Source of the DNA: Thalassospira lucentensis
GTDB taxonomy: Bacteria > Pseudomonadota > Alphaproteobacteria > Rhodospirillales > Thalassospiraceae
Length of the DNA stretch: 64,000 nt
Assembly (NCBI RefSeq): GCF_001613805.1
Contig: NZ_LPVY01000005.1
Span: 186,001-250,000, forward strand
Reading direction: 5' to 3'
Part shown: positions 56,628 to 58,485 of the stretch, in pieces
How positions within the stretch are numbered: the stretch's first letter is position 1
Layout: the number at the start of each line of letters is the position of its first letter
Made by a program: the position numbers and the translations under genes
Notes under the pieces: model-generated
The model's database searches: none
What the model saw: only the letters and a program-made list of their open reading frames with translations
What the model was told of the DNA's origin: nothing

Positions 56628-57323
56628 ATGGCGTTCTTCAGCAAATTCGGCAAATTCCGCATCAAACAGATGGGCGCGCGTTTCCGCACCATGACGGCAG
56701 CATCGGTCTTTGCGACCGCATTTGCGATTGCCGCACCAGCTTCAATCAGCCTGACCCCGGCAAATGCACTTGCACAATCGGGTGCGGTTGATCAGGCAAC
56801 CATTGACAAGATCGAAAACTATCTCGAAGACATCACCACGCTGAAAGCCGATTTTGTCCAGATTTCGTCGGATGGTGGTGCTGCCGAGGGGAAGCTTTAT
56901 ATGGAGCGCCCCGGCAAGATGCGGTTTGAATATAATCCGCCGGCCCAGATTCTGCTGGTCTCGACCGGATCCGATTTCATCTATTATGACAAGGAAATCA
57001 ACGCTCCAACCTATTTTGACATCGACGAAACCCCAGCCGGAATCATTCTGGCAAAAGACGTCTCGCTAACGCGCGAGGTCAAGGTTGTCGATTTCAAACG
57101 GACTGCGGAAACCATGCGCGTCGAAATGGTCCGCAAATCCGATCCGGGTGCTGGCAGTGTCACGCTTGTATTCCAAGAAAACCCGATGCAGTTGCGCCAG
57201 TGGATTGTCACCGACCCCGCCGGGATCGAGACTACAGTGACCCTGTTCAATACCGAAGAAGGTGTCACGCTCGACCCGGAATTATTCAAGTTCGAACGTA
57301 TCTGGCCCAACCAGCGCGGCTGA
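56628..57323 (+). CDS. lolA: LolA-family outer-membrane lipoprotein carrier
   Basis: The 231-residue periplasmic protein has a long signal region ending near ANALAQ (residue 48). The LolA fold follows: YLEDITTLKADFVQISSDGGAAEGKLYMERPGKMRFEYNPP near residues 62-105, DFIYYDKE and LTLVFQENPMQLRQW-like blocks. LolA carries lipoproteins across the periplasm; lnt in this window is in the same pathway. It is divergent from gshB. The 232-base spacer contains an ATATGT-N3-ACATAT palindrome of unknown role. Confidence 0.9.
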   Translation: MAFFSKFGKFRIKQMGARFRTMTAASVFATAFAIAAPASISLTPANALAQSGAVDQATIDKIENYLEDITTLKADFVQISSDGGAAEGKLYMERPGKMRFEYNPPAQILLVSTGSDFIYYDKEINAPTYFDIDETPAGIILAKDVSLTREVKVVDFKRTAETMRVEMVRKSDPGAGSVTLVFQENPMQLRQWIVTDPAGIETTVTLFNTEEGVTLDPELFKFERIWPNQRG

Positions 57324-57527
57324 TTTCAAGATTTCCCATCGACTTCACGAAATTGTCAAAACCGTCTGACAGAACGGTTAAGCATTCCGATTCAAGCTCT
57401 TGCAAATATTGTCGTTTCGCAACGATCAATCAGATTGTAATTTTTCACCTGCATGCATGAAATTTATGGCCGATATGCGGCTCTGATCTATGGCAGACGC
57501 GGCTTTCAGTCCCCATATAAAAATCTG

Positions 57528-57653
57528 TCACAAGGTTCCCGAATTTTGATGTGGGAGCCAAGTGTGAGGAACAGGTCTCCCCTACCTTTCCTCACGCTCC
57601 AGATCATCGGAGCGCTGGCGTCCGGTTCTCCCCCCTGGCCGGACGCCTTTTTT
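57528..57653 (+). ncRNA. Candidate small regulatory RNA with anti-Shine-Dalgarno loops
   Basis: A chain of four hairpins fills part of the 481-base gap between lolA and the next gene. H1: GGTTCCC/GGGAGCC (57534-57559). H2: GTGAGGAA/TTCCTCAC (57564-57595), extended by AGGT/ACCT, with loop CTCCCCT. H3: CGCTCC/GGAGCG (57595-57614). H4: GGCGTCCGG/CCGGACGCC (57617-57647), with CTCCCCCC in its loop, followed by six T. A -10-like TATAAA lies at 57516-57521, giving a start near 57528 and about 125 nt. Alphaproteobacterial trans-acting sRNAs often expose CUCCC loops that pair with ribosome-binding sites. The remainder of the gap holds no gene I can support. The 5' end is approximate. Confidence 0.7.
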
Positions 57654-57804
57654 CTGCCTAAAGCGTAAGTTATCCGACGCTTCGGGCTAAAAATCTGTCA
57701 AATTCTCCTCTGATTTCACGGCCTGTTAATTTTGATTGCCTAGTAATGTTTGACATGATTCCCTTGTGCGCAATCGTGACCGTGCCAGCAGGATAAAACC
57801 GCCA

Positions 57805-58485
57805 ATGATCAATGATTTTCTGAAATCCGTTTCCCAGTTTTCCGACCCGCGATTTCGCAAGGTTGTGTTGATCGGTGTTGCCGGCGCCCTGGCGATAATA
57901 GTCGGGCTTTGGATGCTGATCGGATTCGGGTTGAACTCGATCACCTTCTTTGCCGATGGTGGCTGGATGGAAACAGCGGCTGACTGGCTGCTTGGCGTGG
58001 GTCTTGCGTTTCTGGTGCTGCTAATGTTTCCGGCTACCACTGTCCTGATCTCGAGCCTGCTGCTTGATCAGATCGCCGATGCGGTCGAAGACAAATATTA
58101 CCCAACCCTGCCTGAAACACGCCCGCAACCGATTTCCGAGGCCCTGATCAGTGGCCTTAAATTTGCGCTGACGGCGCTGGCCCTTAACATCCTGATCCTG
58201 CCGCTTCTTTTAGCAGGTCCAGTATATGTTATCGCGTTTTATGCGATGAATGGCTATCTGCTGTCGCGCGAATATTTTGAACTGGTCGCCGCACGTCGTT
58301 ATGATGTTCGCACGGTGAATGCCATTCGCAAAAGTTGCCAGACGAAACTTTGGTTTGCCGGAATCGGACTGACATTCCTGATGACCGTGCCGCTGGTCAA
58401 CCTTGTGGTGCCGATTATCGCGACTGCCTTTATGGTGCATTACTCCGTCCGTCTGGGTGCATTCGAAAACCGGATCACCGTCTGA
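57805..58485 (+). CDS. EI24/CysZ-like membrane protein
   Basis: The 226-residue protein has about four to five hydrophobic segments and the pattern of the EI24 domain family, which includes CysZ: GLKFALTALALNILILPLLLAGPVYVIAFYAMNGYLLSREYFELVAARR, with the YLLSREYFELVAARR block being characteristic. CysZ is linked to sulfate uptake in enterobacteria; related proteins elsewhere are uncharacterised. The ATG at 57805 has CAGGA upstream. No sulfate genes are adjacent. Confidence 0.78.
   Translation: MINDFLKSVSQFSDPRFRKVVLIGVAGALAIIVGLWMLIGFGLNSITFFADGGWMETAADWLLGVGLAFLVLLMFPATTVLISSLLLDQIADAVEDKYYPTLPETRPQPISEALISGLKFALTALALNILILPLLLAGPVYVIAFYAMNGYLLSREYFELVAARRYDVRTVNAIRKSCQTKLWFAGIGLTFLMTVPLVNLVVPIIATAFMVHYSVRLGAFENRITV

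Follow-up and report, generated by a model that had tools for sequence, protein, structure and literature searches.

A structured RNA with a conserved C-rich loop downstream of lolA in Thalassospira, probably a counterpart of the Caulobacter small RNA RusT

What occupies the gap between lolA and the next gene in Thalassospira, where no protein is annotated by domain searches? The window analysed here, the whole stretch of 64,000 nucleotides from Thalassospira lucentensis, carries lolA at 56628-57323 (plus strand; Pfam PF03548 LolA, E 5.3e-27) and, downstream on the same strand, a gene of the EI24/CysZ family at 57766-58485 (PF07264 EI24, E 3e-25; its start is possibly further in). A sequence-only reading of this gap had proposed a structured small RNA that displays C-rich loops, and this proposal is now backed by a promoter footprint, by compensatory base changes, by loops predicted to be unpaired throughout the genus and by conservation beyond the genus.

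On the plus strand, 57526-57653 is predicted to fold into four hairpins in series with a U run at the end; the series of four and its terminator had been claimed before, and sequence, fold and shuffles all agree with the claim. The stretch 57528-57653 has a predicted folding energy of -57.8 kcal/mol, compared with -37.85 kcal/mol (standard deviation 3.64) for 200 dinucleotide shuffles (z -5.48), none of which is as stable. The 5' edge of the unit was moved to 57526 by comparison, as this is the first base of a conserved block, TGTYACAARG, and the full unit 57526-57653 likewise is more stable than all of its 200 shuffles (z -4.70). The conserved block and the fold thus delimit a candidate sRNA of 128 nt from its predicted start to the end of the U run, with both ends being predictions.

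Hairpin 1 (SL1, 57529-57564) is closed by outer CAC/GUG pairs in the predicted fold. Hairpin 2 (SL2, 57565-57594) is probably the targeting hairpin and has the loop CUCCCCU (57577-57583). It is followed by hairpin 3 (SL3, 57595-57614) and by hairpin 4 (SL4, 57617-57647), the terminator, with the loop UCUCCCCCCU; the terminal U run is at 57648-57653. Both loops are as the sequence-only reading had described them. The motif TCCCCTNCC is by itself ordinary in the window (3 matches versus 1.86 expected, and at least 3 in 26 of 100 shuffles): what gives it weight is that it is invariant and located in a conserved loop. A pattern scan of 57324-57810, the rule of which demands a loop of 3-8, did not flag the terminator.

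It is extremely improbable that the stretch is a small protein gene. Two plus-strand open reading frames, of 71 and 36 codons, do overlap the RNA, but neither has a Pfam match, the length of the RNA modulo 3 takes all three residues (in 18, 7 and 3 of 28 Thalassospira genomes) and no reading frame of the six stays open across the RNA in every one of these genomes. The earlier statement that no gene explains the stretch agrees with the missing Pfam matches and the varying length.

The 28 genomes share a putative promoter footprint (57490-57518, plus strand) upstream of TGTYACAARG, while most of the sequence between and before its elements varies. The putative -10 element is CCATAT at 57513-57518 (CYATAT in 28 of 28 genomes), separated by a spacer of 17 nt from a putative -35 element, ATGGCA at 57490-57495, of which TGG is present ungapped at the same place in all 28 genomes and TGGC in 25. 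The alphaproteobacterial housekeeping promoter consensus is CTTGAC-N17-CTATAT: the -10 element fits, the -35 element fits only partly. The putative promoter was not listed by a scan of 57324-57810, which uses the E. coli consensus. A promoter of the heat-shock type (CCCATNT at -10) does not suit the -35 region, which reads TGGCA where that type has the consensus CTTGAA, and this reading was dropped. As the footprint is shared by 28 of 28 genomes, the RNA looks like a free-standing sRNA gene, and judged from these sequences its own transcription is likely.

A DNA search of 80 related genomes found the RNA in 34, including all 28 of the genus Thalassospira (source genome counted); Thalassospira xianhensis MCCC 1A02616 has 98% identity to the window over 57460-57700. 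Of 31 contigs with an EI24 relative, 23 match at the DNA level (22 of Thalassospira and one Rhodospirillales MAG); the remaining eight, which are more distant, have no DNA-level match. In a MAFFT alignment of the 21 distinct full-length sequences of the genus, 96.9% of the cells are in standard pairs; shuffled columns give 94.3%, and sliding the partner gives no more than 50.4%. Both sides are changed in 21 cells (6.6 in shuffles), and six of the 37 pairs show compensatory changes (3.9 expected; reached by 4 of 500 shuffles); there are also 22 further pair types, and as many occur in 83 of 500 shuffles. The changes on both sides are confined to SL1 (four pairs) and SL2 (two pairs). SL3 and SL4 are nearly invariant, with all 10 SL4 pairs kept in 21 of 21 distinct sequences, and say little on pairing within the genus because there is hardly any variation. 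UCCCCU of the SL2 loop is invariant in the genus and the loop is predicted to be unpaired in 28 of 28 genomes, when counted by the flanked motif; in some genomes, the first TCCCCT falls within hairpin 1. The fold is under selection: compensatory stem changes and conserved loops among relatives, proposed as a check by the sequence-only reading, are found in SL1 and SL2 and in the invariant UCCCCU, respectively.

Does the RNA exist outside Thalassospira? For this, a covariance model of SL2-SL4 (R1) was built from 21 sequences, of which two are not from Thalassospira; it has 94 positions, and its E-values are rough. At E<=0.1, R1 matches 141 of the 199 order genomes, 23 of which belong to the same genus, and 51 of the 289 class genomes, three of which belong to the same order; 238 class genomes have no match at this threshold. 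Chance matches to strong terminators are expected, and the matches were therefore checked for linkage to lolA. Among 28 order loci outside the genus, consisting of the best matches and a choice of others, lolA is upstream on the same strand in 24 and within 325 nt in 23. In the class outside the order, 26 places reach E<=1e-3; 19 of these, from 15 families, follow lolA on its strand at a distance of at most 2.5 kb, and the other seven have no lolA linkage by this rule.

This linkage invites the reading that the RNA is the 3' end of the lolA transcript, either a strong terminator with protective hairpins that does nothing in trans, or an RNA that arises from the 3'UTR by processing alone. The RNA is on the strand of lolA, usually close downstream, and it ends with a terminator-like hairpin. 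However, ten of the 19 lolA-linked class places are more than 900 nt away from lolA, the invariant loop is unneeded for termination, and the promoter footprint is present ungapped upstream in every genome of the genus. We regard a mere lolA 3' end as unlikely.

Searches directed at individual loci gave a patchy picture. In 67 further class loci around lolA, R1 has 14 matches at E<=1, and one locus contributes two of these, one on each strand. A selection of 42 loci yields 16 matches at E<=2, and 29 lolA loci of one family yield 11 at E<=1. A Sinorhizobium meliloti record and Shinella both have lolA with no significant R1 match there; the S. meliloti record as a whole has one weak match elsewhere (E 0.036). 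In Methylobacterium bullatum, the match directly after lolA scores no more than 10.5 bits (E 0.19), and eight more distant EI24-linked loci (L054-L061), at which lolA was not sought, have one weak match of 12.9 bits. In summary, the RNA is common in the order and scattered in the rest of the class, and it is not universal.

Several genomes have additional features at or near these places. Second or third R1 places are present in five genomes of the order (G118, G057, G073, G074 and G153) and may be sibling copies. Three genomes of one family (L096, L098 and L099, at about 1501-1591) have a clear R1 match of 43-51 bits on a contig other than that of lolA, possibly a moved copy. A 3.7-Mb record labelled as S. 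meliloti plasmid pSymB contains ftsK and lolA (CP090106.1, 3538167-3544643) and is probably a mislabelled chromosome.

Pairing was also analysed across this wider range, with a diverse MAFFT alignment of 39 chosen sequences (A6). Here, 79.3% of the cells pair, compared with at most 49.4% when the partner is slid, 22 of the 27 pairs have changes on both sides, and covariation is 0.272 versus 0.161 in shuffled alignments, with none of 500 shuffles reaching the observed value. All eleven SL2 pairs have both-side changes and 65.5% of SL2 cells pair; the corresponding range for SL3 is 62-71%, and the nine-pair stem of SL4 is paired in 100% of cells. RNAalifold recovered only the terminator hairpin from A6. 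Among 64 R1 matches, TCCCCT is present within the first 40 nt in 50, a run of CCCCT or CCCCC in 62, and the terminator loop region has four or more C in 59; all three counts lean upward, as the model prefers such sequences.

To which known RNA, if any, does this element belong? At the gathering score, Rfam returned no family match over the window and 20 distant loci. The sequence-only reading had pointed to ar7, ar9 and ar14, which we take to be families in Rfam; this suggestion is unsupported, and a permissive Rfam scan of 57300-57900 gave four matches that include no member of this trio either. The lowest E-value of that scan (0.33, tied with anti-hemB) is that of ftsZ-DE (RF02985), matched by SL2-SL4; with 19.3 bits versus a cut-off of 72.2, membership was rejected. 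The 6C RNA (RF01066), which is actinobacterial, has a similar terminator-like hairpin with a loop of six C and is matched by SL3-SL4 with 24.8 bits, but this is below the cut-off of 47 (E 0.45). Another Rfam family, RF01867 (CC2171), also looks more widespread than its name implies: at E<=1e-3 it has matches in 60 of the 289 class genomes, nine of them above the cut-off, and of 14 control genomes only Caulobacter vibrioides is matched.

The aR8 family (SisA-D and MmgR), as characterised in PMC12559287, resembles the Thalassospira RNA in that it consists of alphaproteobacterial sRNAs with a C-rich, anti-Shine-Dalgarno-like motif and a terminator. Its core UUUCCUCCCU is single-stranded, though, and usually adjoins a gene for N-formylglutamate amidohydrolase (FGase), whereas the Thalassospira RNA presents UCCCCU in a hairpin loop. 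UUUCCUCCCU is absent from its sequence, and its neighbours are lolA and EI24 with no FGase. The shared C-rich single-stranded motif would be the reason to place the RNA in one of the known anti-Shine-Dalgarno groups of Alphaproteobacteria (ar7/ar9/ar14, aR8/SisA-MmgR or the cuckoo RNAs); given the absence of an Rfam match at gathering score and, for aR8, the other motif and the other neighbour gene, we consider such a membership very unlikely.

Of the described RNAs found, the nearest is RusT (CCNA_R0199) from Caulobacter crescentus; no other sRNA at lolA was met among the literature matches listed. According to PMC11005374, RusT is an Hfq-bound sRNA of 118 nt encoded between lolA and xth, folding into four stem-loops of which the last is the terminator. 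Its conserved SL2 (nt 45-57, with C53 in the loop) pairs with mRNAs of outer-membrane transporters, the effect of Hfq maps to SL3 (nt 72-87), and TonB-dependent receptors and OmpW are repressed in an Hfq-dependent manner. The RusT promoter is bound by NtrX, and the RNA, which receives NtrYX input, is induced by shortage of iron and also by zinc. Homologues at this locus are reported there from Caulobacteraceae close to C. crescentus.

We think it likely that the element in the lolA-EI24 gap is an independently transcribed, trans-acting base-pairing sRNA that is about 128 nt long and probably represents RusT in Thalassospira. Transcription may answer an envelope or metal signal, by analogy with NtrYX and iron shortage in Caulobacter; Hfq may be bound around hairpin 3; the SL2 loop would reduce the translation of mRNAs that encode envelope or transport proteins, by pairing with G-rich sequence close to their starts.

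Targets were predicted in 842 kb of the source genome, window included, with 657 crude gene calls. Nine genes for predicted TonB receptors ranked between 100 and 341, in a prediction with an unreliable accessibility term, zero for most of the genes listed; their mean rank of 240.8 is no better than the 236.7 +/- 30.0 of shuffled loops, 39 of 60 of which did as well or better, and the ranking was rejected as evidence. AGGGGA, the exact complement of the SL2 loop, is found upstream of 11 of the 657 crudely called genes, versus 6.6 in shuffles. Neither result bears out the suggestion of the sequence-only reading that the RNA masks many ribosome-binding sites, which stays unproven; with the TonB-receptor test failed and AGGGGA uncommon, selective targets are more likely than general masking of ribosome-binding sites.

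The unspecific target prediction would also suit an RNA that is mainly a C-rich sponge or a protein-binding RNA, in which the SL2 and SL4 loops would capture a protein or a G-rich sRNA and not the start sites of mRNAs, and so would the joint retention of two C-rich displays, with the terminator loop region being C-rich in most R1 matches. RusT, in contrast, acts on mRNAs via its second loop (PMC11005374), and we give the sponge a low probability compared to an sRNA that pairs with mRNAs.

How close, then, is this RNA to RusT? All comparisons are with the published description in PMC11005374. The Thalassospira RNA is, like RusT, directly downstream of lolA on the same strand (lolA at 56628-57323, RNA from 57526), it has four predicted stem-loops in the same order with the last followed by a U run, and it has a similar length (about 128 nt predicted versus 118 nt). 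Its SL2 loop corresponds to nt 52-58, with the invariant UCCCCU, and RusT has C53 in the SL2 loop, a correspondence of descriptions and not of letters; its SL3 comprises nt 70-89 of the predicted RNA, close to the RusT nucleotides 72-87 with the Hfq effect, and hairpin 3 is thus the presumed equivalent of that site. Two differences stand out: the downstream gene is EI24 in Thalassospira and xth in Caulobacter, and the RNA is found in 28 Thalassospira genomes, whereas the paper reports RusT from Caulobacteraceae. We take the xth neighbour as a flank that is not strictly defining for RusT. The order lolA, RNA, xth-like gene is present in five GTDB families with R1 matches at E<0.01 (L161, L193, L217, L254 and kin, L265); by Pfam, the xth-like genes of these loci are Exo_endo_phos, which fits exonuclease III and is not specific for it. 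In L104, a gene of about 200 codons with no Pfam match (1742-2362) lies between the RNA and the xth-like gene, and similar stretches are seen by eye in L103 and L177.

Based on locus, anatomy and synteny, we are quite confident that the Thalassospira RNA and RusT, the latter known here by its published description, belong to one family. The new point is that a RusT-like RNA apparently reaches beyond the Caulobacteraceae of the published report, a statement that is absent from the literature matches listed. If true, the sRNA is older than its description from one genus and near relatives suggests and is shared by many families of the class, with no Rfam match here, and it may connect lipoprotein transport with outer-membrane composition and metal supply. 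The evolution of a bacterial sRNA regulon would then also be open to direct tests, with a pairing loop that is nearly fixed while hairpin 1, the flanking genes and perhaps the targets change. A wider proposal, which we put forward tentatively and with somewhat less than even confidence, is that RusT represents a single branch of a family of sRNAs with deep roots in the Alphaproteobacteria, linked to lolA in many lineages among those that have retained it, with two co-conserved C-rich displays, the SL2 loop and the terminator loop, that would both pair, and with inputs and targets that are specific to the lineage.
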